Of a stretch of 64,000 nucleotides of DNA, positions 6,205 to 48,161 are shown piece by piece; position 1 is the first letter of the stretch, and every line of letters begins with the position of its first letter. The stretch is from the NCBI GenBank assembly GCA_015061165.1, contig SUXC01000001.1, positions 62,001 through 126,000 of the forward strand, in the 5' to 3' direction. The notes under the pieces were generated by a model. The model searched no databases. It saw only the letters and a program-made list of their open reading frames with translations, and was not told the DNA's origin. This DNA comes from Bacteroidales bacterium. Its GTDB lineage: Bacteria; Bacteroidota; Bacteroidia; Bacteroidales; Paludibacteraceae. The position numbers were made by a program, and so were the translations under genes.

Positions 6205-6239
6205 TAATTCAAAATTCATAATTCAAAATTCTAAATTAG
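6205..6239. repeat. Five-unit 7-base array directly before serS
   Basis: Units taattca, aaattca, taattca, aaattct, aaattag end one base before the serS ATG. The same units recur inside serS at 6720-6754. Confidence 0.8.
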
Positions 6240-6240
6240 C

Positions 6241-7614
6241 ATGCTGACTTTAAAACAAATATACGACAACAAAGCCGCTATCATTGCTGGCTTAGAGAAA
6301 AAGCACTTCGCCAATGCGGCTGAAACCATTGAGCAAGTCATCGCCCTTGATACAGAGCGCAAAGCAGCACAACAAAAGAAGGACGCTGCTTCGGCAGAGA
6401 TGAACAAAATCTCTAAATCCATCGGCGCACTCATGGCGCAAGGCAAACGCGAAGAGGCAGAGGCAGCCAAAGCACAAACAGGTGCACTCAAACAAGCCAT
6501 CCCTGGCTACGAGCAAGAGATGGCAAAAGCAGAAGAGGCACTCACCTCCCTGCTCCTCACTATCCCTAATGTACCTTACGACCTCGTACCTCAGGGCGGT
6601 AGCGCAGAGGATAACCTCGTGGTCAAAATAGGCAACTGGGAAAATAAGCCTATGCTCGACAAACTCGCTGCCGAAGGCACCATCGCCCTCCGCGATTGGG
6701 ATAACGAAGCAGACGAGGAAACTTCAAAATTCTTAATTCAAAATTCAGAATTCACAAAACTCCCACACTGGGAATTGGCGAAGAAATACAACCTCATTGA
6801 CTTCGACCTCGGTGTCAAAATCTCTGGAGCAGGCTTCCCCGTATATGTAGGTTTAGGCGCACGCCTGCAACGCGCACTCATTAATTTCTTCCTCGCGGAA
6901 GCCAGCGCAGCAGGTTATACCGAGATCATGCCACCTACCGTAGTGAACGAGGCCAGTGGTTATGGTACAGGACAACTCCCCGACAAAGAGGGACAAATGT
7001 ACCACTGCCAACTCGACAACCTCTACCTCATCCCTACTGCTGAGGTACCTGTTACCAACATTTACCGCGATGTCATCCTTGAAGAGGCACAACTGCCTAT
7101 CAAGAACTGCGCATACACCCAATGCTTCCGCCGCGAGGCAGGTTCCTATGGCAAAGACGTGCGCGGACTCAACCGCCTGCACGAGTTCAGCAAGGTAGAG
7201 ATCGTGCGTATTGACACCCCTGAGCACTCCGACGAGAGCCACAAAGAAATGCTCGCACACGTAGAGGGTCTTCTCCAAAAACTCGAACTCCCCTACCGCG
7301 TTCTTCGCCTCAGCGGTGGCGACATGTCCTTCACCGCAGCACTCTGCTATGACTTCGAGGTATATTCCGAAGCACAACACCGTTGGTTAGAGGTATCATC
7401 TACTTCTAACTTCGATACCTACCAAGCCAACCGCCTCCACTGCCGCTATCGCCGTGCAGAGGATAAGAAGGTAACTCTCTGTCACACGCTTAACGGTTCG
7501 GCATTGGCTCTCCCTCGTGTCGTGGCTGCCCTCCTCGAGAACAACCAAACACCTGAAGGCATCCGCATCCCTGCTGCCCTCCAACCATACATGGGCTGCG
7601 ATATAATCAAGTAA
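6241..7614 (+). CDS. serS: Seryl-tRNA synthetase
   Basis: A class II synthetase that charges tRNA-Ser in the cytoplasm. The 457-residue protein has the N-terminal coiled-coil arm (about residues 25-110), then motif 2 (TQCFRREAGSYGKDVRGL) and motif 3 (LNGSALALPRVVAALLEN). Residues about 160-172 (SKFLIQNSEFT) are encoded by a 7-base tandem array identical in units to the one just upstream of the start codon. The array sits between the arm and the catalytic core, before PHWEL, and keeps the frame. It appears to be a tolerated insertion. No promoter was found close by. Confidence 0.96.
   Translation: MLTLKQIYDNKAAIIAGLEKKHFANAAETIEQVIALDTERKAAQQKKDAASAEMNKISKSIGALMAQGKREEAEAAKAQTGALKQAIPGYEQEMAKAEEALTSLLLTIPNVPYDLVPQGGSAEDNLVVKIGNWENKPMLDKLAAEGTIALRDWDNEADEETSKFLIQNSEFTKLPHWELAKKYNLIDFDLGVKISGAGFPVYVGLGARLQRALINFFLAEASAAGYTEIMPPTVVNEASGYGTGQLPDKEGQMYHCQLDNLYLIPTAEVPVTNIYRDVILEEAQLPIKNCAYTQCFRREAGSYGKDVRGLNRLHEFSKVEIVRIDTPEHSDESHKEMLAHVEGLLQKLELPYRVLRLSGGDMSFTAALCYDFEVYSEAQHRWLEVSSTSNFDTYQANRLHCRYRRAEDKKVTLCHTLNGSALALPRVVAALLENNQTPEGIRIPAALQPYMGCDIIK
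6720..6754. repeat. 7-base array inside serS
   Basis: Units aacttca, aaattct, taattca, aaattca, gaattca. They are read in frame as part of the linker before the catalytic domain. Confidence 0.8.
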
Positions 7615-7632
7615 GATACACTTCGCACAAAC

Positions 7633-7667
7633 AAAAAACGACTGCCCCAACAAGCAGTCGTTTTTTT
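7633..7667 (+). terminator. Terminator of serS
   Basis: AAAAAACGACTGC pairs with GCAGTCGTTTTTT around an eight-base loop, followed by a T run. It is also usable for polA on the minus strand because both flanks are A/T runs. Confidence 0.85.
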
Positions 7668-7680
7668 ATTTCTCTTGAAC

Positions 7681-7730
7681 ACCAGCCTATACCACTCTAT
7701 ACTATCCTATACCACCCTACACACCGCGCA
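7681..7730. repeat. 10-base-period array ending at the polA stop
   Basis: Five consecutive 10-base blocks (accagcctat, accactctat, actatcctat, accaccctac, acaccgcgca). The array abuts the polA stop codon at 7731. Confidence 0.7.
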
Positions 7731-10079
7731 TTAATGCGCTTCTAACCAGTTCTTTCCTACACCGCAGTCGGCAATCAAGGGCACAGTCAAATGCACCACA
7801 TTCTGCATCTCGCTGACCACAATCTCGCGCACCTTATCCACCTCGTCCATTGGCACATTGAAGTTCAACTCATCATGCACCTGCATAATCATCTGCGCCT
7901 TCAGCCCCTCATCCTTCAAACGGCGATGAATAGTAACCATTGCCATTTTTATAATATCCGCTGCTGTACCCTGAATAGGCGAATTAACGGCATTGCGCTC
8001 CGCGAACGAACGAACCGTAGCATTATGCGACAATATATCGGGCAAATAACGCTTTCTACCGAACAAGGTAATCGCATAGCCCTGCTCTCGTGCCAACTCT
8101 TTCTGACGTTCGATATAATCAATCACACCGGGGAAAGCAGCAAAATAGCCATCAATCAATGCCTTCGCCTCCGAACGCGAACAATCCAATTGCTGCGCCA
8201 AACCGAAAGCCGAGATTCCATAGATAATACCAAAATTGGCAGTCTTCGCTTGACGGCGTTGGTCTTTAGTAACCTGCTCAATAGGCACATTGAAAATCTT
8301 GGCTGCTGTGGCAGCGTGAATATCCTGTCCCGAACGGAACGCTTCCACCAGATGAGGGTCTTGCGAGAAATGTGCCATCAATCTAAGTTCAATCTGCGAA
8401 TAGTCCGCCGATAAGAACACACAACCCTCATCGGGTATCACCGCTTGGCGAATCAATTGTCCACGCTCGCTGCGAATAGGCAGGTTCTGCAAATTCGGAT
8501 TGGACGACGACAAACGCCCCGTAGCCGTAACCGTCTGATTATATGTCGTATGTATCTTACCCGTCTCCGCATTAATATACGTAGGCAATGCCGAAATATA
8601 CGTCGAAATCAGTTTCTTCAGTTCTCTATACTCTAAGATCATGCCCACTACCTTATGCTTGCCCTTCAAACCCAACAACACCTCCTCCGAAGTGGAATAC
8701 TGACCCGTCTTTGATTTTTTGGCTTTGGCATCCAACTTCAACTGGTCAAACAGCACCTCGCCCACCTGCTTAGGGGAATTGATATTAAAGGTCGTTTCCG
8801 CAGCCATATATATCTGTTCTTCCAGCACCTGCAACTCGTCATTGAGTTGAATCTCTGCCTGCTTGAGCATATCCACATCAATACGCACACCCGCTTGCTC
8901 CATTTCACGCAGTACTGCCGACAATGGCAGTTCCACCTCTTGATAGAGATTCCAGAGAGCCGTATCAGCCTTCAATACCTCCCACTGAATAGGTTGCGAT
9001 GGGTTATATGCCACTTCAGGATTGAGCAGATAACTCACCAAACGCCCCTCAATTGAGTCTTGGGACACCGTTTCTTCCTTTGCTATCCACCCGTTATCCT
9101 CCTCATATCCACCCGATAAAGAATCAGTTTCTACAGAGGCAAACAAGTCAAGTGTCGCCTCCTGTGGCTTGGCTTTCTTAGTGGCTTTGGCTATTGGCAA
9201 TGGGCTATTGGCAATAGAAGCGGGAGCCTGTTTGAGCAGCGAATTAAACTCTAATTCCCTATACAGAGGAGCCAATCGCTCCCAATCCTTCTCCTGACAC
9301 ACCAGCGATTGCGCATCAAAAGAAATAGGCACATCGGTCTTAATTGTGGCCAAGAACTTCGAAAAACGGATATTATCCACCTGTTCCTGCACTTTGCGCT
9401 GCAGTGCCCCTTTGAGTTGGTCGGTGTTCGCCAATAGGTTCTCTATCGAACCAAACTGCTGCAATAGTTGTACCGCCGTCTTCTCACCAACCCCTTTACA
9501 GCCAGGGATATTATCGCTGCTATCGCCCATCAATCCCAACAAATCCACCACCTGTGCCTGCGTTTGCAAACCATATTTCTCACACACTTCCTGAGGACCC
9601 ATCTTCTCAAATCCCCCCGTATGGCGCGGACGGAACATAAAAACATGTTCGGTTACCAACTGCCCATAATCCTTGTCGGGCGTTGCCATATACACCTCAA
9701 AACCCTCTTTCTCGGCCTGATGAGCAAGCGTTCCTATCACATCGTCTGCCTCATAACCATCCACCTGCAGAATAGGAATATTCATAGCCTGAAGCAGTTG
9801 TTTGATTCGAGGTACTGCCCAACGTATATCCTCTGGCGTCTCCTGTCGTTGCGCCTTATATTGCTCAAATGCTTCATGACGGAACGTAGGTCCCGCAGGG
9901 TCAAACGCCACAGCCAAGTGACTGGGCTTCACACGCTTAATCAAGTCCTCCAACGTGACTACAAAACCAAAAATAGCCGAAGTATTCTCTCCGCGCGAGT
10001 TCATACGAGGCGCACGAATAAAAGCATAATACGCGCGATAAATCATCGCGTAAGCATCTATGAGCAATAAGGTCTTCAA
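7731..10079 (-). CDS. polA: DNA polymerase I lacking most of the 3'-5' exonuclease domain
   Basis: DNA polymerase I fills gaps in repair and removes Okazaki primers. The 782-residue protein has the N-terminal 5' nuclease (residues 1 to about 285, with GYEADDVIGTLA and LMGDSSDNIPG). It also has the polymerase domain with motif A (DYSQIELRLMAH), motif B (RRQAKTANFGIIYG) and motif C (VHDEL). Between them only about 60-80 residues remain, where relatives carry a proofreading domain of about 180 residues. The C-terminal edge of that domain (LVSYLLNPEVAYNP) is still recognisable. The linker contains IANSPLPIAKAT, encoded by a 7-base array. Relatives are usually 920-950 residues long. Confidence 0.93.
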   Translation of the reverse strand: MKTLLLIDAYAMIYRAYYAFIRAPRMNSRGENTSAIFGFVVTLEDLIKRVKPSHLAVAFDPAGPTFRHEAFEQYKAQRQETPEDIRWAVPRIKQLLQAMNIPILQVDGYEADDVIGTLAHQAEKEGFEVYMATPDKDYGQLVTEHVFMFRPRHTGGFEKMGPQEVCEKYGLQTQAQVVDLLGLMGDSSDNIPGCKGVGEKTAVQLLQQFGSIENLLANTDQLKGALQRKVQEQVDNIRFSKFLATIKTDVPISFDAQSLVCQEKDWERLAPLYRELEFNSLLKQAPASIANSPLPIAKATKKAKPQEATLDLFASVETDSLSGGYEEDNGWIAKEETVSQDSIEGRLVSYLLNPEVAYNPSQPIQWEVLKADTALWNLYQEVELPLSAVLREMEQAGVRIDVDMLKQAEIQLNDELQVLEEQIYMAAETTFNINSPKQVGEVLFDQLKLDAKAKKSKTGQYSTSEEVLLGLKGKHKVVGMILEYRELKKLISTYISALPTYINAETGKIHTTYNQTVTATGRLSSSNPNLQNLPIRSERGQLIRQAVIPDEGCVFLSADYSQIELRLMAHFSQDPHLVEAFRSGQDIHAATAAKIFNVPIEQVTKDQRRQAKTANFGIIYGISAFGLAQQLDCSRSEAKALIDGYFAAFPGVIDYIERQKELAREQGYAITLFGRKRYLPDILSHNATVRSFAERNAVNSPIQGTAADIIKMAMVTIHRRLKDEGLKAQMIMQVHDELNFNVPMDEVDKVREIVVSEMQNVVHLTVPLIADCGVGKNWLEAH
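9191..9218. repeat. 7-base array inside polA linker
   Basis: Units ctattgg, caatggg, ctattgg, caataga. They are related to the CCAATCA/CCAATTG units in queG and the methyltransferase gene. Confidence 0.7.
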
Positions 10080-10099
10080 GGTTGAAAAAGTTTTAAGTG

Positions 10100-10153
10100 T
10101 TCTACGATTTCTATAACGTCTATGATTTCTATAGCCTCTATAACTTCTATAGA
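10100..10153. repeat. Six-unit 9-base array between polA and ung
   Basis: Units ttctacgat, ttctataac, gtctatgat, ttctatagc, ctctataac, ttctataga in register. They fill most of the spacer between two minus-strand genes. Confidence 0.8.
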
Positions 10154-10162
10154 CACCACCTT

Positions 10163-15569: not shown

Positions 15570-17129
15570 TTAATTTAACTCTATAGGAAGACCGCGCAAT
15601 TGTATCTCCTTGCCATCAGGACCTTTCGCCTTGATATACATCAAGTTGACAGTATTGCCTTGTTTCAATTTCTTGATAGCGTCCAATGCTTTGTTATCAA
15701 AGTGGTCGCCTTTTACCGAAATAGAAGCACCTGTTGGCAATTTCACTTGGAAACCAGTGATTTCGAACTTAGCTTGTACCAGTCCATCCGCACCATACGA
15801 AGCCACGATTCTGTTCTTTGGATTAATCAGCTGTGCGCGTGGTACACGTGTATCCTCAGTTGGCACACCGTTTATCTCGAAGTAAGCATCTGGACGAGGC
15901 AGATTCTTCACGCGGTATAGTTGCGAACCCATCAAAGTAGGTGTTCCTTCTATAGTTGCATATACTTCAATTTCCAAATTGTCTGGAGAATCTGCACTTG
16001 GACGGATAATCCACATATTGCCATCATGTTGGATAGATGCTTGTGCACATTTCACTTGCAACAAGTGGGCACTCACACCTGGCACTGAGATGGAGAATGG
16101 GTTGTCATAACCACGATACATGATATTCAAGTCGGTGTTGGAGATGGTCGCTGTTGGCTCACCTACGGTGTACTCACGCTCGAATGGCAAATATTGCATC
16201 ACACCTTGTTGGTCCATATAACCAATCTTACCTGTAATCTTCTGTACACCAACGGTATTTGCCACCACTTCATACACACCTTTGCTATTCAACTTTTGAC
16301 CATTCACATAGTACTCAGGTGTTTGGGTTGAGTCAATAGCAGCCAAAATCACTTGTGCGGTGTATTTTGTACCTTTCACCACGTAGTTAGCAGAAGGGAT
16401 CACGTATGCGTTAAACTTGTTCACGCGCAAGTCGCCTGCATCGGTAGCGCCCAACAGCAATCGCGTTGCCACGCCCTCGCAGTGACGAATATCATTCTGC
16501 AACTTAGTCAGAATAGTGATTGACGCACACATTGGCATCTCGTTGAAGATCATATTCTCCCATGTTACAGGGTCGCCTTCTGCGTTCTCGCCGTCATCGG
16601 TCACGAAAGTGCGGTTCATTTCCTCATGGAACATTGTCGCACCTGGGGCCTCTTCGGTATACTTAATCAAGAAGTTACGGAAACGATTAATCTTCTCTTT
16701 CAGTTCGGTAGCATGACCTTCGTTGATGGCATATTGAGCAGGGATATTGGTATCATCTTTCTTGCCAATCTCACTTACTTTGGCGTTCATCACTGCCTTT
16801 TTGCCGTCTGCCAACAGCACCATATCATCTTTGAATTTCTGCACATACTCAAAGAACTCATCCGAAACGCGTTTTACCTCCATGGCTTTGTCGTACCATT
16901 CTTGGGTCTTCTCTGGGTTTTTGTCCAAAGCAGCCTTAAAGGTAGCGTATGTTTCGGCGTTACTATCTTGCATTGTGTCAATAGTTGCATGCAAACTATC
17001 ATCCACTTGCGTGTATCCGTTCAAGATAGCTGCACTGACGTTGAGCGCCAACATGGCGGTCAACACCAGATACATCATACCTATCATCTTTTGTCTCGGA
17101 GTTTCCGGACAGTTAGTAGCTCCACTCAT
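15570..17129 (-). CDS. gldM: Type IX secretion motor protein GldM/PorM
   Basis: GldM spans the periplasm and, with GldL, forms the proton-driven inner-membrane motor of type IX secretion. The 519-residue protein has one membrane helix near residues 16-37 (MIGMMYLVLTAMLALNVSAAIL). A long periplasmic part of four domains follows, with a helical first domain up to about residue 220, YVIPSANYVVKGTKY, and the Ig-like C-terminal domains. The start MSGATNCPETPRQKMIG is the classic family N-terminus. Confidence 0.96.
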   Translation of the reverse strand: MSGATNCPETPRQKMIGMMYLVLTAMLALNVSAAILNGYTQVDDSLHATIDTMQDSNAETYATFKAALDKNPEKTQEWYDKAMEVKRVSDEFFEYVQKFKDDMVLLADGKKAVMNAKVSEIGKKDDTNIPAQYAINEGHATELKEKINRFRNFLIKYTEEAPGATMFHEEMNRTFVTDDGENAEGDPVTWENMIFNEMPMCASITILTKLQNDIRHCEGVATRLLLGATDAGDLRVNKFNAYVIPSANYVVKGTKYTAQVILAAIDSTQTPEYYVNGQKLNSKGVYEVVANTVGVQKITGKIGYMDQQGVMQYLPFEREYTVGEPTATISNTDLNIMYRGYDNPFSISVPGVSAHLLQVKCAQASIQHDGNMWIIRPSADSPDNLEIEVYATIEGTPTLMGSQLYRVKNLPRPDAYFEINGVPTEDTRVPRAQLINPKNRIVASYGADGLVQAKFEITGFQVKLPTGASISVKGDHFDNKALDAIKKLKQGNTVNLMYIKAKGPDGKEIQLRGLPIELN

Positions 17130-21433: not shown

Positions 21434-21468
21434 CTTTACACTTTACACCTTAAACCCTAATCCTATAA
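21434..21468. repeat. 7-base array at the methyltransferase 3' end
   Basis: Units ctttaca, ctttaca, ccttaaa, ccctaat, cctataa. It overlaps the last codons and stop of the methyltransferase gene at 21450. Confidence 0.7.
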
Positions 21469-22442
21469 TCCCTCTTCCAATAGTCCTTATCGAAGAACAC
21501 CAATCCCATTTGGTATAAATCCATGGTACTTGTCACGCGTTCATCTTCGCATATCTCGTGCCAGGCTTTTTCCATTTCTTTGTTGTAGTGAATATCATCC
21601 ACTACTACTACGCTTTTTGCGTGTACTTTTTCTGCTAATACATTAAAGTATGCGCGCGTGCCCGCGTACGTGTGGTTCGCATCTATAAAAGCCACATCCA
21701 CACGCTCCAAATCCCTATCTAACATATCGGCGGTTATCTCCCCCACTCGACAATCTATGTTCTTTATTCCCAAGGCTTTCCAATTCTCTTTGGCTATCTC
21801 AGCCACGGCGGGACAACCTTCGTATGTAATCACTTTGTTGCGTTTGTTCATGGCTGCCATATAGGCTGTCGTCACGCCCAAACTTGTTCCAAGTTCCACA
21901 ACTATCAATCGCCTATCACCCATCTCCAATTGCCCATCACCAATTGCCAATTGCCCATCGCCCATCGCCAATCGTCCATCGCCCAACCAATTCACCAGCC
22001 GTGCCAACATCTGCGCATATTTCTTCTTCGCCAAACTCTTCTTTGCTATATCACTGACCTTTCGCCTATCTCTCGCCTCCCGATTCCCGATTTTCGTTTT
22101 CGGACTCCCGACTCCCGATTCCCGATTCTCGTTTTCGGACTCCCGACTCCTGACTCCCGATTCCCGTTTTCGGACTCCCGACTCCCGATTCCCGTTTTCG
22201 GACTCCCGATTCCCGATTCCCGCCCCATAATCCACGAATTCTACTGTGCGGTTATCTGCCAGCATTTCCTCGCGCACTTTTTCTATTTTCTCCCACGCGT
22301 AGTAGCTGTGTTCATCGCGCATGACCAACCTCACCCATTCGAACAGATAGGGCGAATGTATTCCATGCCCACCCGTATGCCGAGCGGTCAGGCAGTGTTT
22401 CAGGTACGAACCCACACGATATATCGCCGTTTGCCAATCCAT
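21450..22442 (-). CDS. Class I SAM-dependent methyltransferase (O-methyltransferase-like) carrying two repeat arrays
   Basis: A Rossmann-fold methyltransferase with the SAM loop VVELGTSLGVTTAYMA, YEGCPAVAEIA, FIDANHTYAGTRAY and VVVDDIHYN, like the O-methyltransferase 24 type. The substrate is unknown. I start it at ATG 22442 (MDWQTAIYRVG), just after a promoter; the longer frame upstream only translates an 11-base repeat. Two in-frame arrays interrupt the protein before the SAM loop: residues about 75-121 (repeats of the type GNRESG) and about 152-180 (GDGQLAIGDGQLEMG). Apart from these inserts, the flanks read as one continuous domain. Confidence 0.85.
   Translation of the reverse strand: MDWQTAIYRVGSYLKHCLTARHTGGHGIHSPYLFEWVRLVMRDEHSYYAWEKIEKVREEMLADNRTVEFVDYGAGIGNRESENGNRESGVRKRESGVRSRESENENRESGVGSPKTKIGNREARDRRKVSDIAKKSLAKKKYAQMLARLVNWLGDGRLAMGDGQLAIGDGQLEMGDRRLIVVELGTSLGVTTAYMAAMNKRNKVITYEGCPAVAEIAKENWKALGIKNIDCRVGEITADMLDRDLERVDVAFIDANHTYAGTRAYFNVLAEKVHAKSVVVVDDIHYNKEMEKAWHEICEDERVTSTMDLYQMGLVFFDKDYWKRDYRIRV
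21905..21988. repeat. Twelve-unit 7-base array inside the methyltransferase gene
   Basis: Consecutive units of the type ccaattg, cccatca, ccaatcg, cccatcg run in perfect register from 21905. They encode the low-complexity GDGQLAIGDG region. Confidence 0.9.
22081..22220. repeat. Twenty-unit 7-base array inside the methyltransferase gene
   Basis: Twenty consecutive heptamers: cgattcc, cgatttt, cgttttc, ggactcc, cgactcc, cgattcc and so on. A higher-order order of ggactcc, cgactcc, cgattcc, cgttttc recurs about every four to five units. Confidence 0.93.
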
Positions 22443-22472
22443 CTTCTGCGCGAAAACTACCGTAATTTTCTG

Positions 22473-22503
22473 CAAAGATAATACAAAACTCTCAAATATG
22501 CAA
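22473..22503 (-). promoter_or_regulatory. Promoter of the methyltransferase-adenosyltransferase pair
   Basis: Minus strand TTGCATATT at 22503 with TATCTTTG 22480-22473. It decides the methyltransferase start at 22442. Confidence 0.75.
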
Positions 22504-22540
22504 ATACTTCCCCCATTTTTCTTGTTTGTTTCTATACATT

Positions 22541-22646
22541 CCCGATACATACCCGATACATACCCGATACATACCCGATACATACGTATATCCCATGAAT
22601 ACCCCACGAATACCCCGCATATACCCCATGAATACCCCAAGCATGA
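22541..22646. repeat. 11-base tandem repeats between divergent promoters
   Basis: Four exact copies of CCCGATACATA (22541-22584) are followed, after 7 bases, by five copies of CCCATGAATAC-type units (22592-22646). Apart from the promoters, the gap 22443-22778 holds nothing else I can support. Confidence 0.92.
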
Positions 22647-22738
22647 CAAAAAAGAAGGAAAAAAGGAGTATAAAAGCACCCATACACCGCATAATCCTTA
22701 AAACTTTTAAAACTCGTAACACTTTTTTCACCCAAAAT

Positions 22739-22769
22739 TTGCACATCCGCAAATTTTGTTGTACCTTTG
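22739..22769 (+). promoter_or_regulatory. Promoter of the nucleoside-gate protein gene, near-leaderless
   Basis: TTG 22739-22741, 20 bases, TACCTTTG 22762-22769. The ATG is only 10 bases after the last G of the -7 box, so the leader is a few bases at most. Confidence 0.8.
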
Positions 22770-22778
22770 CAGGCAATT

Positions 22779-26174: not shown

Positions 26175-27668
26175 CTACTCTTGGTTAGCTATCTTCATTA
26201 AATATGCTTTGGCTGCCTCGTACTCGTTAGGAATAATGCCGTCGAGTATGGCATCTTTGATTGCATTCTTGAGTTCGCCCACACGCGAGCAAGGTTCGAG
26301 ATTCAATAGCTGCATAATCTCTTCGCCACGCACAGGCGGTTGGAAATTGCGGATACGGTCTTTCTCCTCCAGTTCAATCATCTTCTGCCGTACCAGTTCG
26401 TAATTCTTGTGGAAGCGACGCACTTTCTCTTCGTTGCGCGAAGTGATATCTGCATCGCAAAGGAGCATGAGGTCATCTATATCGTTGCCTGCCTCAAACA
26501 ATAGGCGGCGTACTGCCGAATCGGTAACCGTATCTTCGATGAGATTGATTGGGCGCATATGCAGGTCTACCATCTTGATGACATACTGCATCTTCTCGTT
26601 CTGTGGCATCTTCATGGTCTTGAAGATACGCGGAATCATCTTTGCGCCGAGATAGTTATGGTTGCGGAAAGTCCAGCCCGCATGGTCGTCCCATGCTTTG
26701 GATTTAGGTTTGCCTATATCGTGTAGTAATGCAGCCCAACGAAGCCACAAATTGTCCGATTTCATCGACAAATTATCCAATACTTGCAGCGTGTGGAAGA
26801 ACACATCTTTGTGCCCTTTGCCATCTTTGGTCTCTACGCCTTTGAGTGCGGATAATTCGGGGAAAATCAGCGGAAGGAGTCCTGTCTTGTCAAGCAATAT
26901 CCACCCCACGGACGGCTTGCGCGAGAGCATAATCTTGTTGAGTTCCTCTACAATGCGCTCTTTGGTGATGATCTTGATTCGTTCGCGATTTCTCTCGATG
27001 GAATCGAAGGTTTCTCTATCTAAGTAGAAGCCCAGTTGCGTGGCAAAGCGGATGGCACGCATCATACGAAGCGGGTCATCGCTGTAGGTGATATCAGGGT
27101 CGAGGGGTGTGCGGATAGTGCACTCGTTCATATCGTGTATGCCACCGAAGGGATCAAGCAGTTCGCCATAGCGGTCTTTATTAAGACACACAGCCATGGC
27201 GTTGATAGTAAAGTCGCGGCGATTCTGGTCATCCTCCAGCGTACCGTCTTCCACAATTGGGTTGCGCGAATCATGTTGATAACTCTCACGGCGAGCACCT
27301 ACGAATTCCAACTCTATCTTTCCACGCTGCGGGGTCCCCGACAAGCCTCGTGGGCGAGTGGGGTGCACTTTGACTTGGGCAGTACCGTAAGTCTTGAAGA
27401 CACTAAGGTGTGCCCCTTTGCCGAGGCGTTTGGCAACGGCTTGCGCGAGGTCAATGCCACAACGGGTTCCCTGACTTGCCTCGTGGGCAAGTAGGGTGTT
27501 CTTACCTACCACGACTACATCAATGTCGGTACTCTCGCGATGCAAGAAGATATCGCGCACATAACCGCCAATGACATAGCACTCCAAGCCGAGACGGTCG
27601 GCTTCTTCGCCTACGAGGTGAAGAATGGGGAGGTCTATTTTAGGGTGAGAGGCGAGCATACGTGGCAA
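26175..27668 (-). CDS. cca: CCA-adding-type tRNA nucleotidyltransferase with HD domain and two inserted repeats
   Basis: A class II nucleotidyltransferase that adds or repairs the tRNA 3' CCA end. The 497-residue protein has the head motif VIGGYVRDIFL with the metal-binding DID (residues 48-50), RRDFTINAMA, DPLRMMRAIRFA and an HD domain (LLHDIGKP, FRNHNYLGAKM). Residues about 57-70 and 102-115 are foreign-looking: they interrupt the normal DVVVVG...GIDLAQAVAKRL and TAQVKV...KIELEFVGARRES strings. Both come from the same 38-40-base hairpin element read in different frames. A 7-base array abuts the start codon. Confidence 0.92.
   Translation of the reverse strand: MPRMLASHPKIDLPILHLVGEEADRLGLECYVIGGYVRDIFLHRESTDIDVVVVGKNTLLAHEASQGTRCGIDLAQAVAKRLGKGAHLSVFKTYGTAQVKVHPTRPRGLSGTPQRGKIELEFVGARRESYQHDSRNPIVEDGTLEDDQNRRDFTINAMAVCLNKDRYGELLDPFGGIHDMNECTIRTPLDPDITYSDDPLRMMRAIRFATQLGFYLDRETFDSIERNRERIKIITKERIVEELNKIMLSRKPSVGWILLDKTGLLPLIFPELSALKGVETKDGKGHKDVFFHTLQVLDNLSMKSDNLWLRWAALLHDIGKPKSKAWDDHAGWTFRNHNYLGAKMIPRIFKTMKMPQNEKMQYVIKMVDLHMRPINLIEDTVTDSAVRRLLFEAGNDIDDLMLLCDADITSRNEEKVRRFHKNYELVRQKMIELEEKDRIRNFQPPVRGEEIMQLLNLEPCSRVGELKNAIKDAILDGIIPNEYEAAKAYLMKIANQE
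27329..27366. repeat. Hairpin repeat inside cca, copy 1
   Basis: CGGGGTCCCCGACAAGCC then TCGTG then GGCGAGTGGGGTG. Its hairpin arms are imperfect. It aligns with copy 2 over about 38 bases with roughly 80% identity. Confidence 0.8.
27461..27500. repeat. Hairpin repeat inside cca, copy 2
   Basis: ACGGGTTCCCTGACTTGCC, TCGTG, GGCAAGTAGGGTGTT. ACTTGCC and GGCAAGT form a perfect 7-base stem with a TCGTG loop. It is translated in a different frame from copy 1. Confidence 0.82.
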
Positions 27669-27696
27669 TTTTGAATTATGAATTTTGAATTAAGAA
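27669..27696. repeat. Four-unit 7-base array touching the cca start codon
   Basis: Units ttttgaa, ttatgaa, ttttgaa, ttaagaa. Same family as the arrays before serS and at 41691. Confidence 0.8.
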
Positions 27697-30263: not shown

Positions 30264-30903
30264 ACTGGCACGCGAGGTGGGCTTTGATGCCTGCGGTGTG
30301 GCTCCCGTTCATCGTTTAGATGATGATGCACAATTCATGGATCATTGGCTCGCTGAGGGACTGCACGGCGAGATGGATTATCTGGAGCGTAACCGCGAGA
30401 AACGGTATAACCCTGCTATCTTAGTTCCTGATGCACAGGCGGTAGTCGTTTGTTTGTTGCGTTTCGAACATTCGGGCAGAGACTATCACCGACGCGTGAA
30501 ATCGCTGCTCTATACCCTCGAAGCCAGACTAAAGCAGGCATTTGGCGAGGACATCGTGTCCGCCACACACCAACATATATTTTGCGACTCCGCACCTATG
30601 TTAGAAAGGCGATGGTGCATGGAGGCAGGACTCGGATTTATCGGCAAGAACCACCAACTTATCCATCCTACCTTGGGCAGTATGGTACACCCGGGGGAGA
30701 TTGTCATTAACCAATTGCCAATCACCAATCACCAATCGCCAATCGCCCCAACCTGCTCCAACTGCCGCCTCTGCTTGGATGCTTGCCCCACGGGCGCACT
30801 GCGCAATGAGAAATGGGATGCTCGCCAATGTATAGCATACACCACCCACCACTGCTTGGAGTGCCAACATGTTTGCCCATACAACCAAACAACACCCAAC
30901 TAA
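30235..30903 (+). CDS. queG: Epoxyqueuosine reductase QueG, shortened
   Basis: QueG is a B12- and iron-sulfur-dependent enzyme for the last step of queuosine synthesis. The N-terminal part (GFDACGVAPVHRL, MDYLERNREKRYNP, DSAPMLERRWCMEAGLGFIGKN) and a first cluster motif CSNCRLCLDACPTGA are clear. The region between CIAYTT and the second cluster (CLECQHVCPYN) lacks about 30 residues present in relatives, and the C-terminal tail is missing, giving about 222 residues against 300-380. INQLPITNHQSPIAP before the first cluster comes from a 7-base array. The start is uncertain: TTG 30235 is one option, overlapping the upstream gene by 29 bases. Confidence 0.75.
   Translation: MILTSENICKLAREVGFDACGVAPVHRLDDDAQFMDHWLAEGLHGEMDYLERNREKRYNPAILVPDAQAVVVCLLRFEHSGRDYHRRVKSLLYTLEARLKQAFGEDIVSATHQHIFCDSAPMLERRWCMEAGLGFIGKNHQLIHPTLGSMVHPGEIVINQLPITNHQSPIAPTCSNCRLCLDACPTGALRNEKWDARQCIAYTTHHCLECQHVCPYNQTTPN
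30711..30745. repeat. Five-unit 7-base array inside queG
   Basis: Units ccaattg, ccaatca, ccaatca, ccaatcg, ccaatcg in exact register. Confidence 0.88.
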
Positions 30904-33768: not shown

Positions 33769-34122
33769 GCAAAGAGGTTGATAGAAGATATTAACTATTA
33801 ATTATTAACTATTAACTGCTCGGCAGACATATTAAAAAGGCGTTTATTGCGCTCTGTTCTGACGAATTGAAATCTCGCAAGTTTCAGGGAATTTCAGGAC
33901 TTAGCAACGATAGATGTCCTACGGGATATAAGATTATCCCTCTTGTGCCTATTTTGGTACGTCTTTTGCGTATATACGTATGCGCACACGCGTACCTTAA
34001 CTATGTAGCACGAGAGTATATTTTATATTCGGCGTGGGCTTCGCGTTGTCGGTTCTAAATTCCAAGGCAATGCGAGAGCCTCAATTCGTGGAACTGGCAA
34101 AAGGCAAGTTCCGCGCTTTTTT
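33769..34122 (+). ncRNA. Probable structured non-coding RNA of about 350 nt
   Basis: The unit has its own consensus promoter and ends at an intrinsic terminator (34087-34122), with no supportable gene inside. Stems seen by eye: TGAAA/TTTCA, AGGAC/GTCCT, GGGATA/TATCCC, GGTACG...CGTACC with an inner GCGTATA/TATGCGC, CGAGAGTATA/TATATTCG, and GGCT-GCGTTG/CAATGC-AGCC. It starts with a four-unit 7-base array (33790-33817). It lacks tmRNA or RNase P landmarks. It could belong to a Bacteroidales RNA class known only from comparative work, or be a long leader for the gene at 34185. Confidence 0.55.
34087..34122 (+). terminator. Terminator of the 350-nt RNA
   Basis: CGTGGAACT (34087-34095) pairs with AGTTCCGCG (34107-34115), followed by CTTTTTT. 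Confidence 0.7.
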
Positions 34123-40976: not shown

Positions 40977-41690
40977 ATGAAACAGAAATTAGTATTTATT
41001 CTTACCTTCTTGTGCCTCGCTTTATCGGCAGTGGCGCAAGTGCAACCTGGCGATTCGCAGTATAGTGTATCGCTACATGCGGGATATGGTCATAATCTGA
41101 CATACGGCTCGTATGCCAATTTTGATTTAGATGCCTATATGCCTATCAATCAGCATTTTGATATGCAAGCAAATGTGCGTACCAGTACAGCCAATTTTCA
41201 TGCAATGGGTGTTCAGTTGCGCCCGAAGTTCATATTGCCAATTGGCGAGTTGTATATTGAAGATAGATTGTTGATGCGTTTTGTGAGCCGTGATAGCTTT
41301 CGTGATTTCGTTCATGCACTATCTGTGGGGTACAAGATGCAGTACGTCAATGTGCAAGTGGGTATGGCAACGCGTATTATTACGCCATTGCCATATATCA
41401 ATCGCAGCGAAGATGAAATGATCTTAGAACCCTTTGATGCTGTCTATCGCGTAGAGGCATTTGTGCGTCCACAAACCTCACCTTGGAACATCAGTCTGTG
41501 CCTCTCCAATATGGATAACTACCAAGTGGAGCGCATGTGGCAACCTATGTTTTATCTGGGTGGATGGTATGATATTACCAAGCATTGGCGTGTACGCCTG
41601 TCAGGCAAATACAAACTGGCAGGTATGTTCCATTTGAATGCGCATTACTATGGAGCAGAAGTACGTGCGGGAGTAGAATACCGTTTTTAA
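40977..41690 (+). CDS. Predicted outer-membrane beta-barrel protein
   Basis: A 237-residue protein with a signal peptide (cleavage near AVAQ, residue 21), alternating hydrophobic strands with aromatic ends, and a terminal strand AHYYGAEVRAGVEYRF that ends in Phe, the outer-membrane insertion signal. I do not recognise a specific family. It is followed after a 23-base 7-base-period array by the phosphoesterase gene. Confidence 0.65.
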   Translation: MKQKLVFILTFLCLALSAVAQVQPGDSQYSVSLHAGYGHNLTYGSYANFDLDAYMPINQHFDMQANVRTSTANFHAMGVQLRPKFILPIGELYIEDRLLMRFVSRDSFRDFVHALSVGYKMQYVNVQVGMATRIITPLPYINRSEDEMILEPFDAVYRVEAFVRPQTSPWNISLCLSNMDNYQVERMWQPMFYLGGWYDITKHWRVRLSGKYKLAGMFHLNAHYYGAEVRAGVEYRF

Positions 41691-41718
41691 TTAAGAATTT
41701 TGAATTAAGAATTATGAA
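41691..41718. repeat. Four-unit 7-base array that contains the next start codon
   Basis: Units ttaagaa, ttttgaa, ttaagaa, ttatgaa. The ATG of the phosphoesterase gene (41714) is within the last unit. Confidence 0.85.
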
Positions 41719-42660: not shown

Positions 42661-43164
42661 ATGCTTATCTACTTTGGAATAGGAACAAACTTGGGCGATC
42701 GTGAGGCGAATCTCCGCATGGCGCTTCAGTTGCTGCATGAGCGCGTAGGGGAGTGCATAGCCTGTTCCTCTATTTATAGAAGCGCACCACAGGGCTTTGC
42801 CTCGGAGAATGAGTTTGCGAACGTGGTGGTTGTGTGCCGTACTGACCATTCGCCCGAAGAAGTGTTGCTGATAACTCAGCATATAGAACGCGAGATGGGA
42901 AGAACCGAGAAATCGGTCAATGGCGTGTATCACGATAGGGTGATTGATATAGACCTGCTGCAAGCGGGAATCGGGAATCGGGAGTCGGGAAGCGTGAATC
43001 AGGAAACGGGAATCGGGAGTCGAGAATCGGGAATTCAAACTCAGGTGGAATGTAAAACCGATACCCTCACGCTTCCTCATCCACGTATGCACGAGCGCGA
43101 CTTTGTGCTTATCCCTCTCCGCGAGGTAGAAGCCATTCTCCAGTCTTTAACCTTTAACCTCTAA
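42661..43164 (+). CDS. folK: Hydroxymethyldihydropterin pyrophosphokinase with an in-frame repeat array
   Basis: Transfers pyrophosphate from ATP to the pterin in folate synthesis. The 167-residue protein has GIGTNLGDREANLRMAL, SSIYRSAPQGF, ENEFANVVV and the signature YHDRVIDIDLL. The family normally continues with a short loop into TLTLPHPRMHERDFVL. Here residues about 102-125 (GIGNRESGSVNQETGIG and on) are inserted between them and come from a ten-unit 7-base array. The stop codon lies in another such array. Confidence 0.92.
   Translation: MLIYFGIGTNLGDREANLRMALQLLHERVGECIACSSIYRSAPQGFASENEFANVVVVCRTDHSPEEVLLITQHIEREMGRTEKSVNGVYHDRVIDIDLLQAGIGNRESGSVNQETGIGSRESGIQTQVECKTDTLTLPHPRMHERDFVLIPLREVEAILQSLTFNL
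42964..43033. repeat. Ten-unit 7-base array inside folK
   Basis: Units gcgggaa, tcgggaa, tcgggag, tcgggaa, gcgtgaa, tcaggaa, acgggaa, tcgggag, tcgagaa, tcgggaa. Same family as 22081-22220. Confidence 0.92.
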
Positions 43165-43172
43165 CCTCTAAC
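43145..43172. repeat. 7-base array supplying the folK stop codon
   Basis: Units ctttaac, ctttaac, ctctaac, ctctaac. The folK TAA (43162-43164) lies in the third unit. Confidence 0.85.
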
Positions 43173-43177
43173 CTCTT

Positions 43178-44495: not shown

Positions 44496-44512
44496 TTAAT
44501 AGTAATACCTTC

Positions 44513-44540
44513 CTTTACACCATACACCTTACACCATAAA
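44513..44540. repeat. 7-base array touching the mntP start codon
   Basis: Units ctttaca, ccataca, ccttaca, ccataaa. The last base is the A of the mntP ATG. Confidence 0.82.
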
Positions 44541-45112: not shown

Positions 45113-45684
45113 TTCAGAATACATTGGTCAGTTTGGATGTCTTGGAGAAGGACTTTTGCTGCGATTTGGATAAATGTCGCGGTTGCTGCTGTATTGAGGG
45201 CGATGCAGGGGCACCTCTCACCGATGAGGAAGAAGAAAAAATACGCGAGATTCTGCCTGTCCTTCTGCCCGATATGACCAAAGAGGCACGTGCCGTGGTG
45301 GAAGCGCAAGGACTATCGTATCTTGACCCGTCAGGCGAGAAAGTAACATCTATAGTGAATGACAAAGACTGTGTCTTTGCGCGCACAGACCACAACGGTT
45401 GGTGCTATTGCCTCATTGAGAAAGCATACAACGCAGGCAAGATTGATTTCAAGAAACCTATCTCGTGTCATTTGTATCCCATTCGACTGAATCAAGTGGG
45501 CGATATGATAGGGGTGGAGTATCATCGTTGGGATATTTGCCACTGCGCTCGCGTATTGGGCAAGAAACTGCATTTGCCTATCTATCAATTCCTGAAAGAG
45601 CCACTCATTCGCCGTTTTGGACAAGAGTGGTATGATGAACTTTGCCTTGTGGCGGAGGAATGGAAGAAACAGGGAAAGGTGTAG
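45103..45684 (+). CDS. DUF3109 cysteine-rich protein
   Basis: A 193-residue protein with a cysteine-rich N-terminal part (DFCCDLDKCRGCCCIEGDAG), CVFA near residue 88, CYCLIEKA, and ISCHLYPIR with WDICHCARV. The pattern is that of a metal or iron-sulfur binding protein of the DUF3109/YkgJ-like kind. Start ATG 45103 lies inside mntP, so the two are translationally coupled. A link to metal homeostasis is an inference from this overlap. Confidence 0.82.
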   Translation: MFLIQNTLVSLDVLEKDFCCDLDKCRGCCCIEGDAGAPLTDEEEEKIREILPVLLPDMTKEARAVVEAQGLSYLDPSGEKVTSIVNDKDCVFARTDHNGWCYCLIEKAYNAGKIDFKKPISCHLYPIRLNQVGDMIGVEYHRWDICHCARVLGKKLHLPIYQFLKEPLIRRFGQEWYDELCLVAEEWKKQGKV

Positions 45685-45706
45685 AGTGTAAAGTGTAAAG
45701 TGTAAA
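45679..45706. repeat. Four-unit 7-base array before cinA
   Basis: Units gtgtaga, gtgtaaa, gtgtaaa, gtgtaaa. The DUF3109 stop lies in the first unit and the cinA start follows within 10 bases. Confidence 0.88.
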
Positions 45707-45715
45707 GGCATGGGT

Positions 45716-46954
45716 ATGAAGGCTGAGATTATAACAATAGGCGACGAATTGCTGATAGGACAGGTGGTGGATACCAACTCGGCGTGGATGGCGCAGCGAT
45801 TGAATGAGTATGGCATTGTGCTGCATCAGATTACCTCTGTGCATGATGACCGTCAGCATATACTGACTGCTATTGATGAGGCATTTGGACATGCAGATAT
45901 TGTACTGACAACTGGTGGATTGGGGCCCACAAAAGATGATATAACCAAGCAGGTACTTTGCGAATATTTCAACACTTCGCTGGTGGAGGATATTCGCGTG
46001 CGTGAACACATATATTCATGGTATAAGGAGCGACCTGATGTGCTCAATCGTTTGACAGCCACCCAATGGCTCGTACCCAAATCGGCTACCATACTGCCCA
46101 ATAGAGTAGGTAGCGCACCGATTATGGTGTTCGAGAAAGAGGTGATAGGCATTGGGAAGAAGTTGCTGGTTGCTATGCCTGGTGTGCCGCATGAGATGCA
46201 GATTGCCATGACGGAGCAAGTGATACCTTATATTAGATTAGAGGCAGGGGGTATTATTCACAAAACCATGTTATTATCTGGAATCCCCGAATCGACATTA
46301 GCCATTCGCATTGAGGATTGGGAGAATGCGTTGCCAAGTTATATGCATTTGGCATACTTGCCCAAGGATGGTATGATCCGTTTGCGATTGAGCAGCTATG
46401 GCGAGGCGACTGAAGAGGAGATGAACCAGCAGATAGAGCTGCTCCAGCCATTGATTTCGGAGTACCTACTTGCTTCGGAAGATTTATCTCTGGAAACGAT
46501 CTTAGGTAATCTGCTCAAGCAGCATGGACAAACCATTTCTACCGCAGAGAGTTGTACCGGAGGCCGATTAGCAGCCGCACTGAATGCACAATCGGGGTCG
46601 TCTGCGTATTATATGGGCTCTGTGGTAGCATACGACAATTCCATAAAAGAACAAGTGCTGGGTGTAGAGCATACGATACTTGAAGAATATGGCGCCGTCA
46701 GCGAACAAACGGTTCGCCAGATGGCGGAAGGTGTTCGTGTACTAATGCAAACTGATTATGCGATAGCCACCTCTGGCATAGCAGGACCTACGGGGGGAAC
46801 GAAAGACAAACCAGTAGGAACAGTCTGGATAGCATGGGCTACACCCAAGGGGACACATGCCAAATGTTTCCGTTTGGGCACATTGCGCGAACAAATAACC
46901 CAACGCGCCGTAACAACAGCCATGATACATTTAATCCGTATAATGAGAGATTAA
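45716..46954 (+). CDS. cinA: CinA-like protein with C-terminal nicotinamide-nucleotide amidase domain
   Basis: The N-terminal domain (about residues 1-170) is MoaB/MogA-like, starting MKAEIITIGDELLIGQVVDTN and with TTGGLGPTKDDITK. It acts as an ADP-ribose pyrophosphatase in characterised members. The C-terminal PncC domain (about 255-412) has STAESCTGGRLAAAL, YYMGSVVAYDNSIK and ATSGIAGPTGGTKDKPVGTVW and deamidates NMN in pyridine-nucleotide salvage. Start 45716 is preferred; an in-frame ATG lies two codons upstream. Confidence 0.93.
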   Translation: MKAEIITIGDELLIGQVVDTNSAWMAQRLNEYGIVLHQITSVHDDRQHILTAIDEAFGHADIVLTTGGLGPTKDDITKQVLCEYFNTSLVEDIRVREHIYSWYKERPDVLNRLTATQWLVPKSATILPNRVGSAPIMVFEKEVIGIGKKLLVAMPGVPHEMQIAMTEQVIPYIRLEAGGIIHKTMLLSGIPESTLAIRIEDWENALPSYMHLAYLPKDGMIRLRLSSYGEATEEEMNQQIELLQPLISEYLLASEDLSLETILGNLLKQHGQTISTAESCTGGRLAAALNAQSGSSAYYMGSVVAYDNSIKEQVLGVEHTILEEYGAVSEQTVRQMAEGVRVLMQTDYAIATSGIAGPTGGTKDKPVGTVWIAWATPKGTHAKCFRLGTLREQITQRAVTTAMIHLIRIMRD

Positions 46955-46982
46955 TGAGGAATTAATAAGGAATTAATAAGGA
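46950..46982. repeat. Three-unit 11-base array at the cinA stop
   Basis: Units attaatgagga, attaataagga, attaataagga. The cinA TAA is at the start of the array. Confidence 0.85.
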
Positions 46983-47007
46983 TTTGTTGTAATAATTTGC
47001 TATTTAT

Positions 47008-47038
47008 TTGCAGATGTAATAAAAAAGCAGTACCTTTG
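47008..47038 (+). promoter_or_regulatory. Promoter of the CBS/DUF21 gene
   Basis: TTGCAGATG at 47008 with TACCTTTG 47031-47038. Confidence 0.82.
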
Positions 47039-47064
47039 CAGACTATTTCAATCAAACGTAAAAT

Positions 47065-48135
47065 ATGATAACTTATTTATTGTTGTATCTTTTTCTTGCG
47101 CTGTGCGTGTCATTCGTATGCTCGTTGCTGGAGTCCACGTTGATGTCCACTACGCTGTCATACATCACGCTACGCGAAGAAGAAGGATACAAACCTGCTT
47201 CGCTCATGAAAAAGTACAAAACAGAGACGGAGCGTCCATTAGCGGCTATATTGTCGCTCAACACCATCGCCAACACCGTAGGTGCCAGTGGCGTAGGTAT
47301 GCAAGCTACACTCATCTTTGGCGAAACATGGTTCGGCGTATGCAGCGCCGTGATGACCATCCTGATCTTGGTCTTCTCCGAGATCTTCCCTAAGACCATC
47401 GGTACCACGTATTGGAAACATCTCATGGGCTTGGCAGCGCACACAATACGCATACTCATCTTTGTAATGTACCCCATTGTGAAACTCATAGAGCTCATTT
47501 CGCGTCTATTCCCTGAGCCAGATGAGGCTGCGGTTAGTCGCGAGGAAGTAATCGCTATGGCTAATGTGGGCGAAGAAGAAGGTGTGATAGAGGAAGATGA
47601 GAACAAGATTATTCGCAATTTAATGCGTCTGAACGAGGTGAAGGCATACGAAGTGATGACACCCCGCGTGGTGGCAGCCACTGCTCAAGAGAATATGACC
47701 CTCAAGGCATACTACGAAAGTGATCAGTATGACCATTTCTCGCGTATTCCTGTATATGCTGAATCACAGGAGTTTATCACAGGATATGTATTGCGCGATG
47801 ATGCGTTGGAAGAACTGACGGAAGACCAATTCCAAAAGACATTGGGCGAAATCAAACGACCATTGCTCTATTTCAACGAAGAAAGTAGTGTGAGCGACAT
47901 CTTTGATAAGATGCTGCAAGAGAAATCGCAGATAGGTGTGGTGATTGATGAGTATGGTTGCTTCCAAGGTGTATTGACCTTTGAAGATGTGATAGAAACA
48001 ATCTTTGGTTTTGAGATTATTGATGAGATGGACGTGGTAACCGACATGCAGCAGTATGCTCGCGAACGTTGGCAACAACGCCAAAAGAAATATCGTACTA
48101 TATCACCTAAAGAGAAGTTAGAGGTTAAAGGCTAA
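47065..48135 (+). CDS. DUF21/CBS-domain membrane protein (CNNM/CorC family)
   Basis: A 356-residue protein with an N-terminal DUF21 membrane domain of about four helices (residues 1-150, ESTLMSTTLSYI, EIFPKTIGTTYW). An acidic hinge follows (EEEGVIEEDENKIIRNLM), then two CBS domains (about 190-330: MTPRVVAATAQEN, FSRIPVYAE, GVVIDEYGCFQGVLTFEDVIETIFG). It lacks the usual C-terminal transporter-associated domain. Relatives move or sense Mg or other divalent metals. The last residues are encoded by a 7-base array. Confidence 0.88.
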   Translation: MITYLLLYLFLALCVSFVCSLLESTLMSTTLSYITLREEEGYKPASLMKKYKTETERPLAAILSLNTIANTVGASGVGMQATLIFGETWFGVCSAVMTILILVFSEIFPKTIGTTYWKHLMGLAAHTIRILIFVMYPIVKLIELISRLFPEPDEAAVSREEVIAMANVGEEEGVIEEDENKIIRNLMRLNEVKAYEVMTPRVVAATAQENMTLKAYYESDQYDHFSRIPVYAESQEFITGYVLRDDALEELTEDQFQKTLGEIKRPLLYFNEESSVSDIFDKMLQEKSQIGVVIDEYGCFQGVLTFEDVIETIFGFEIIDEMDVVTDMQQYARERWQQRQKKYRTISPKEKLEVKG

Positions 48136-48161
48136 AGGTTATAGGCGAGAGGTAAGAGCTT
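48113..48161. repeat. Seven-unit 7-base array across two convergent gene ends
   Basis: Units agaagtt, agaggtt, aaaggct, aaaggtt, ataggcg, agaggta, agagctt. Both stop codons (48133-48135 plus strand, 48139-48141 minus strand) fall in it. Confidence 0.85.

Follow-up and report, generated by a model that had tools for sequence, protein, structure and literature searches.

The 64-kb stretch of DNA analysed here (the window) comes from a genome in which short tandem arrays of 7-base units are in large excess over shuffled sequence, lie close to gene borders and also occur inside the genes of conserved enzymes. Identical units recur at unlinked sites of this host genome, and orthologous sites of related species carry different units. 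We consider it fairly likely that the arrays are dispersed short satellites that turn over by whole units and are tolerated where they do no harm. An earlier note, made from the letters of the window, had listed 16 heptamer arrays at gene borders and suggested a process that generates 7-base repeats as such instead of copying a particular sequence. The host is a member of the Bacteroidales near Paludibacteraceae and not a cyanobacterium: its mutY product shares 81% identity with its counterparts in a Paludibacteraceae genome from water-buffalo colon and in a Bacteroidales metagenome genome, and the next eight best mutY loci are all labelled Paludibacteraceae and come from the guts or faeces of herbivores. 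The gut is presumably also the habitat of the host.

Excess of period 7 and placement relative to genes

The host genome comprises 32 contigs with 2.47 Mb in total, of which about one third was sampled, i.e., 799,641 bases (5,588 masked), of which 104 kb are intergenic according to a codon-usage gene caller that was trained on long host open reading frames and also applied to relatives; its predicted starts are approximate, and arrays may sway it. Six of the 20 host stretches had been picked for GGGAATC doublets and the window itself is non-blind; three stretches of congener G022 and all those of G033, G046 and G047 had been picked for orthologues (G numbers are genome labels, L numbers locus or stretch labels). 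Blind and picked stretches were counted separately for the host and G022, and the blind host sample, picked without regard to arrays, comprises 614 kb. Samples were 25-186 kb for each congener and 6-60 kb for each outgroup.

The genome-wide check proposed in the earlier note revealed a clear excess of period 7. Intergenic DNA of the blind host sample contains 34 arrays of period 7, 25 of period 11, 12 of period 14, eight each of periods 9 and 10 and five of period 8, whereas 20 dinucleotide shuffles of the same intergenic stretches gave no array of period 7 or 11; the coding DNA of the blind sample holds 21 period-7 arrays. For the whole host sample the intergenic counts are 59 (period 7), 35 (11), 17 (14), nine (9), nine (10) and seven (8), and no arrays were found in three dinucleotide shuffles. 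The period-7 counts are 59 intergenic and 33 coding when periods 12 to 15 also compete, and 70 and 36 otherwise; with the latter counts, the density is 12.8-fold higher between genes (70 arrays in 105 kb versus 36 in 689 kb of coding DNA).

Host period-7 arrays lie at a median distance of 7 nt from the nearest gene border, compared with 17.4 nt for random placement in their own spacers (n = 63), a value that none of 2000 permutations reached, and 37 of the 63 arrays in clean spacers are within 10 nt of a border. Gene borders are thus a true but incomplete description, because four of the listed arrays sit within coding sequence, at 6719 in serS, 9189 in polA, 30711 in a QueG-like gene and 42965 in folK. 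With all units pooled, there are 0.76 period-7 arrays per kb in co-directional (46 arrays), 0.46 in divergent (8) and 0.86 in convergent spacers (9). Among the 18 GTGTAAA arrays, ten point with both neighbouring genes, seven against both and one is at a contig edge. The GGGAATC family comprises 29 arrays (consensus with at most one mismatch) and 124 units in the host sample, with position 5 as the main variant; 17 arrays are intergenic and 12 coding in a sample of which six stretches had been picked for this unit, and the density is still higher between genes because coding DNA is 6.6 times larger. The densest region in the host list is C26:54275-119081, with nine GTGTAAA doublet matches (about eight arrays) in 65 kb.

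Different units at orthologous sites

The idea that unit families differ in sequence and have the period in common was borne out at orthologous sites. At the junction upstream of cinA (45710), the host has four GTGTARA units (45679..45707, plus strand), which give the upstream gene its stop codon and end 2 nt before cinA, whereas in 11 of the 17 congeners that have both genes the two overlap; ten of these overlaps are 21-22 bases as measured from the homologue of the host's first codon, or about 16 bases from their own ATG. As read by eye, the same junction holds an AGGTTAA-type 7-mer in G022, a AACTCCTG-type 8-mer in G033, a TTTGTAAA-type 8-mer in G005 and an AATCAGT-type 7-mer in G001; in G009 and G007 the spacers are short and contain no array.

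A second such site is in folK (HPPK; 42661..43164, plus strand; TIGR01498 above cut-off), where ten GGGAATC/GGGAGTC units (42965..43034, plus strand) stand in frame between the codons for DIDLLQA and LTLPHP. The corresponding loop is built of ATCACTC units in G022 and G033 and of an AGGCGAT-type 8-mer in G066, while G047 has a degenerate AATTCAA-like stretch that is not significant alone (P=0.49); nothing recognisable was found in G062 and ordinary sequence in five other parsed species. The flanking motif was parsed at 11 of 30 loci, the other 19 being dropped, and four of the 11 parsed loops are significant. Since the array-bearing loops other than that of the host are, at 48-51 bases, nearly as long as the ancestral-looking ones (mostly 51-54 bases), the array there replaces sequence and does not only add it.

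The QueG-like 4Fe-4S gene has an in-frame array of CCAATCR in the host (30711..30747, plus strand) and of CCAATAY in G022, and loops of similar length without an array in G005 and G046; this comparison covers seven of 12 retrieved loci, and among these seven G033, G047, G025 and G041 gave no usable protein. An AGAGGTT/AAAGGCT array (48113..48153, plus strand) overlaps the convergent 3' ends of the host's CNNM gene and mutY, where by eye there is none in L001 and L002. A GAATTAA/GAATTTT array (41689..41718, plus strand) fills the 23-nt spacer of two genes, and G022, G033 and G047 have other sequence at this site. On contig C87 of G033 (L141), a 5.2-kb stretch separates the homologues of window genes 44540 and 45103.

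Arrays within enzymes and changes of loop length

In the host, 26 period-7 arrays, distributed over 23 genes, are located 30 bases or more inside predicted gene borders. In a Pfam scan of 18 of the proteins, 16 matched families, including PurL (FGAM synthase), Mfd (transcription-repair coupling factor), DXP synthase, MurF-alanine racemase, AroB (3-dehydroquinate synthase), TrmB (tRNA m7G methyltransferase), RsmH and a MiaB/RimO-type enzyme. The arrays are in frame in FolK, RsmH, SerS, PurL, Mfd, DXS and AroB, and several of the array-carrying enzymes are essential. Seven of the proteins were compared with solved structures by alignment. RsmH, HPPK, SerRS and DXS (five residues) have the array where their sequence shows an insertion or a break, and AroB and TrmB have it where the structural alignment stops; the two arrays of the MiaB-like enzyme are in weakly aligned stretches that adjoin gaps but are not inside them. 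In serS (6241-7614), an AAAATTC-type array (6719..6754, plus strand) near residues 160-171 falls in the stretch 134-169, where the best solved SerRS match has only six residues.

Protein relatives were taken as the best 120 listed per search (clusters at 90% identity; the RsmH search scored 8000 candidates), and loops could be parsed in 118 of 120 clusters for FolK, 95 of 120 for RsmH loop 1 and 29 of 120 for RsmH loop 2. Among these best 120, the GIGNRESG series of FolK measures 18 residues in 100 clusters (95 of them RES-like), 25 in one and 32 in six; eleven other loops, of 22-24 residues, have a TPSNSPFKGEN-like insert. The FGNRESG series of RsmH loop 1 measures 17 (48 clusters), 24 (2), 31 (12), 45 (10) and 59 residues (1), while loops of 18 (21) and 29 residues (1) have other sequence; loop 2 holds a NRESGIGNQISG-like sequence of 12 or 19 residues, EGDEAKG repeats or PTPTPSLKGREL. 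Lengths within the array series differ by multiples of 7 residues (21 bases), and no smaller change contains both whole heptamers and whole codons. The relatives, known from protein sequences alone, are 80-98% identical to the host proteins, so their sources are close strains or species. Together these series give good evidence of copy-number change on a short time scale and of selection that filters the frame; they fit either slippage or recombination as the maker and do not say which. In proteins P0126-P0150 (RsmH) and P0102 and P0108 (FolK), the loops are filled by PTPTPSLKGREL, PHPLPKGKG or TPSNSPFKGEN peptides, which may be another dispersed repeat family translated in frame.

Unit repertoires, unit structure and array ends

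An identical unit, up to rotation and strand, is found in 4.7% of all pairs that the 106 period-7 arrays of the host can form and in 4.6% of the unlinked ones, compared with 0.2-0.4% when letters are permuted and 0.2% for random intergenic 7-mers. In the two blind sets, 8 of 336 and 25 of 372 unlinked pairs are identical, compared with 0 and 0 in one permutation each. Units in common with the host were found in 1.4% of pairs for G022, 3.1% for G033, 4.7% for G046 and 3.3% for G047, where permutation gave 0.1, 0.9, 1.3 and 0% and the arrays number only 23, 3, 3 and 2, respectively; for the more distant congeners G025, G007, G041 and G008, sharing with the host is not above the permuted level. 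Three exact doublets, chosen after being noticed in the sample, were counted in 81 genomes. GGGAATCx2 occurs in six genomes (11 in the host and at most two in any other), GTGTAAAx2 in 20 (39 in the host, 20 in G080 and eight in G062) and ATCACTCx2 in eight (20 in G022 and four in the host), whereas the same patterns reversed, as controls, matched 0, 3 and 2 times in the 81 genomes together.

Substitutions within units were tabulated for arrays with a single mismatch or none, and any unit that differed at more than two positions was excluded. The loose positions are RR after GTGTA (82 units), NN after ATTGG (74), mostly WW after GAATT (44) and positions 2 and 5 of GGGAATC (124), and in each family clustering by position departs from uniformity at one mismatch (chi-square, P below 1e-13); single arrays are clustered at P<=0.05 in only eight of 29 cases. 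For GGGAATC and ATTGG, the loose positions are the same in coding as in intergenic arrays. An apparent difference in substitutions between coding and intergenic arrays came from two-mismatch tables, in which neighbouring families were mixed, and was lost at one and zero mismatches.

The units GTGTAAA, AGGTTAA, AGGCGAA and GTTTAAA often end on the right in AAAGGCA. Over 40 intergenic occurrences of this word, the lag-7 match is 0.475 in the 42 bases upstream and 0.28 downstream, while the best of 33 letter-permuted words differs by 0.076. The effect is weak in G022 (0.41 versus 0.28, seven occurrences) and absent from G007, G025, G011 and G041, with three to six occurrences each. AAAGGCA is not simply a ribosome site, because it is also found on arrays that point against their neighbouring genes. 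At L023:4589-4682, L023:5380-5443 and L028:18394-18470, arrays adjoin GCGGC-N3-GCCGC hairpins, twice as inverted pairs with AAAGGC inner ends, and L029:2343-2444 is a 37-base higher-order repeat of three copies, each a four-heptamer block plus CAGCAATTG.

Range and preferred period

All 13 sampled congeners carry intergenic arrays of some period, which make up 0.6 to 7.5% of their intergenic bases, although the samples of G002 and G036 have no intergenic period-7 array. In about 264 kb from eight genomes that represent as many other families of the order, a single intergenic array (period 7) was found, along with eight coding arrays with periods of 6 to 15. Period 7 is preferred in the host and G022, and 11 in G002, G012 and G041; G011 has nine 8-mer and six 11-mer arrays versus two of period 7, and in G008 period 9 is commonest, on three arrays. 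In the host, 11-mers are the second commonest class, and one of them, TATCCACCGCT, is present in identical copies at L029:89-118, L029:19727-19756 and L033:4854-4883. A mechanism tied to seven bases fails to explain periods that differ among congeners, and a fixed 7-nt footprint is disfavoured for that reason.

Arrays of the window

For each of the 16 listed positions, the lag-7 match over the surrounding 121 bases was compared with that in 500 dinucleotide shuffles. Fifteen of them stand at P<=0.01, the weakest being 9191 (P=0.010 exactly); the list fails at position 2028, where there are four very degenerate GGGAATC-like units (P=0.47). Tandem Repeats Finder (minimum score 30) also lists all positions except 2028, at slightly shifted coordinates. 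The four unit families named in the note are all present, of which GTGTAAA and CTCTAAC, given as one, are better treated as separate.

Upstream of serS, an AATTCAA/AATTCAT array (6205..6237, plus strand) ends 3 nt before the start codon (6241), and polA (7731-10046) contains about two 14-base copies of the ATTGGCN family (9189..9215, minus strand). A GTGTAAA array read on the minus strand (21434..21452) terminates in the common AAAGGCAAGG right end, and a CCAATCG/ATCGCCC array (21906..21985, minus strand) is at the 5' edge of a methyltransferase gene (21450-21965, minus strand). The spacer 21966-22778 holds a GGGAATC/GGGAGTC array with a 35-base higher-order repeat (22070..22222, minus strand) and two arrays of the second period class, the 11-mers ATACATACCCG and ACGAATACCCC (22534..22639, plus strand); another 11-mer array of the window is at 46941-46982. 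An AATTTTG/AATTATG array (27667..27696, minus strand) is directly upstream of a gene for a poly(A)-polymerase-head/HD protein (26175-27659, minus strand), a TATTAAC array (33789..33817, plus strand) is intergenic, and a CTTTAAC/CTCTAAC array (43145..43176, plus strand) spans the folK stop codon and ends 1 nt before the next start codon (43178). A CTTTACACCATACACC array (44513..44538, plus strand) is upstream of an MntP-like gene (44540). The window also contains a GldM gene (15570-17129), which suggests a gliding or type IX secretion cluster.

At 49327-64000, tRNA-Pro is followed by genes for a tyrosine integrase, a tape-measure protein and a terminase-like protein; this prophage probably runs off the end of the window. 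The remark that this part has no array is literally true, with zero period-7 arrays, but their absence is not significant because only about two would be expected there at genome density; the idea of a depletion in this prophage was dropped on these numbers, and for mobile elements it is not significant here.

Origin of the arrays

If the arrays are dispersed satellites, each species would hold its repertoire of units, of 7 and also of 8 and 11 bases, scattered over the genome as short arrays. From this repertoire, further arrays would be seeded at unlinked sites, possibly by ectopic template switching or non-reciprocal recombination, and would then grow, shrink and be homogenised by whole units, perhaps through slippage or unequal exchange. 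They would persist at the sites of least harm, i.e., beside start and stop codons and between genes that overlap in most congeners, and in protein loops where units are gained or lost, on balance, in threes (21 nt). Because 7 and 3 share no factor, a unit that bears a stop codon stops all three frames. The arrays would probably be mostly neutral or selfish rather than regulatory. The mechanism suggested in the earlier note fares unevenly against these data: several unrelated unit families indeed exist, but the period varies and units recur, and the recurring units together with the common right end of one superfamily point to copying.

Local replication slippage alone, in which the polymerase favours 7-nt steps from local seeds and nothing moves between loci, is unlikely. 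It would be in keeping with the whole-unit length differences of related proteins, with the 0% indels of nearly all period-7 rows of Tandem Repeats Finder and with the polymerase-footprint idea for heptamers, which passages of two papers (PMC4679880; PMC4692102) mention along with their rank as the commonest long simple-repeat class, but not with identical units at many unlinked sites, with the right end AAAGGCA or with the predominance of 8- or 11-mers in some congeners, since members of one genus would be expected to have the same replisome. That arrays lie close to gene borders and that about five unit positions are conserved and two free in four families might indicate selected cis-elements, whose cores (GTGTA, ATTGG, GAATT) would bind an RNA or DNA regulator at a 7-nt pitch near starts, and translational control has been proposed for TAACTGA arrays (MacGregor, 2015; PMC4679880). 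Yet fixed and free positions of GGGAATC and ATTGG are the same in coding sequence, arrays are also found at convergent gene ends, the orientation of GTGTAAA arrays is mixed and units turn over between congeners at a fixed site, and we regard this explanation as very unlikely. Slippage alone fails on recurrence and the common end, and regulation alone on the coding and convergent arrays and on turnover; dispersed satellites are therefore favoured.

Even less probable is an origin of the arrays from a larger miniature element, a hairpin with inverted flanking arrays moved by a transposase, of which they would be the eroded ends. A few arrays do flank a GCGGC-N-GCCGC hairpin, including the two inverted pairs with AAAGGC inner ends, but the intergenic part of the host sample has just six such hairpins, of which three lie within 60 bp of a period-7 array, no Y1 (RAYT) transposase was matched, and the flanks beyond the AAAGGC end look unrelated by eye in the families displayed. 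An origin from RAYT/REP elements was rejected likewise, given no PF01797 match in the host and few hairpins. Position and period persist while the unit is replaced from species to species, units have about five fixed and two loose positions in coding and intergenic arrays alike, and one superfamily has a defined right end. All this could also be read as the work of a dedicated copying activity that writes arrays from species-specific short RNA or single-stranded DNA templates into gene borders and protein loops. To this we attach a low probability; if true, it would amount to a telomerase-like or template-switching satellite writer in bacteria.

Several observations weigh against dispersed satellites. 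Substitutions fall on two fixed unit positions in four host families, a pattern that neutral decay after duplication does not predict and that a regulator fails to explain in the coding cases, and it is the least explained fact of the analysis. Copying between loci was not seen directly: unlinked arrays have 22 exact matches of 24 bases versus 17.2 (maximum 29) when unit order is shuffled and four of 28 bases versus 3.2, and only matches of 18 and 21 bases exceed the shuffles. Unit recurrence in the blind part of G022 is 2 of 70 pairs versus 3 in one permutation, the distant congener G011, on two arrays, has one unit in common with the host (2 of 212 pairs versus 0 after permutation), and one RsmH loop changes by five residues (EGDEAK repeats) instead of seven. 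No enzyme was found, the RAYT-type transposase family (PF01797) being unmatched in the host genome (98% complete) while controls match it in five of 14 genomes. Block copying of long arrays was rejected for lack of an excess at 24 or 28 bases.

According to PMC4679880 and PMC4692102, only hypotheses have been put forward since 2007 for why heptamers dominate the long simple repeats of bacteria. The genus studied here is a natural experiment: it has dozens of related species, its best-sampled genome contains several unit families, a given site may be empty or filled with different units, and proteins record seven-residue steps. This makes the origin, spread and fate of the arrays testable, and it also shows short satellites that add or replace loops in essential enzymes.

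Comparison with known repeats

Short tandemly repeated repetitive sequences (STRRs) are heptameric tandem units of heterocystous cyanobacteria. The likeness to them that the earlier note had pointed out is one of kind; the arrays are heptamers, but the nearest named relatives of the host are Bacteroidales, which sets them outside the STRRs. Rickettsia palindromic elements, palindromes of about 100-150 bp, resemble the arrays as small repeats that lie in frame in protein genes, whereas the present repeats are tandem direct heptamers and not palindromes.

The arrays fall within the class of long simple sequence repeats (5-11-nt unit), with the same period class and the same preference for heptamers, which Mrazek (2007), as cited in passages of PMC4679880 and PMC4692102, found to be the commonest such class in most bacterial genomes and related to a polymerase footprint. 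Species-specific unit repertoires and a same-site comparison within one genus go beyond that class, as far as it is described there. The (GATAGRA)n heptamer satellite scattered in Chloroflexus aurantiacus (PMC6749651, in part) is similar in that one unit of one species occupies many sites with one purine-degenerate position, but many families per genome and coding insertions distinguish the arrays of the host.

Rehm (2015; PMC4692102) describes GGGAATC heptamers in Xanthomonas that vary in length and sequence between two genomes, related GGGGA(C/T)T repeats in Nostoc, and the polymerase-slippage hypothesis for heptamer repeats. The GGGAATC arrays of the host are like that family in unit, (GGGANTN)n heterogeneity, dispersal and mostly intergenic location near gene ends; unlike it, they are one of many families in one genome, and the under-representation in coding regions reported there compares with 12 coding and 17 intergenic arrays among the 29 of the host sample. 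Further traits of the Xanthomonas family are G-quadruplex formation, a preference for four units and scarcity between divergent genes, where the pooled period-7 arrays of the host reach 0.46 per kb. MacGregor (2015; PMC4679880) reports TAACTGA direct repeats in Beggiatoaceae, Cyanobacteria and five Bacteroidetes, including two sets in Paludibacter propionicigenes, so that related arrays have been described in Bacteroidetes, whereas the earlier note knew of no description for this lineage. Those repeats likewise are heptamers directly before starts or over stops and sporadic across phyla. TAACTGA is a minor unit here, not the main repeat (one array, L036:203-246, of the 106 of period 7), and coding repeats, mainly at protein ends there, are in several cases in the middle of conserved enzymes here.

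Within an open-access library, which leaves most subscription papers outside, we found no report of such arrays for the present genus and none of heptamers in the middle of many housekeeping enzymes with 21-base steps. In an Rfam search at gathering scores, the tRNA alone was matched. The kind of repeat is thus already known, and what the host adds to it is many families per genome and arrays inside housekeeping enzymes.

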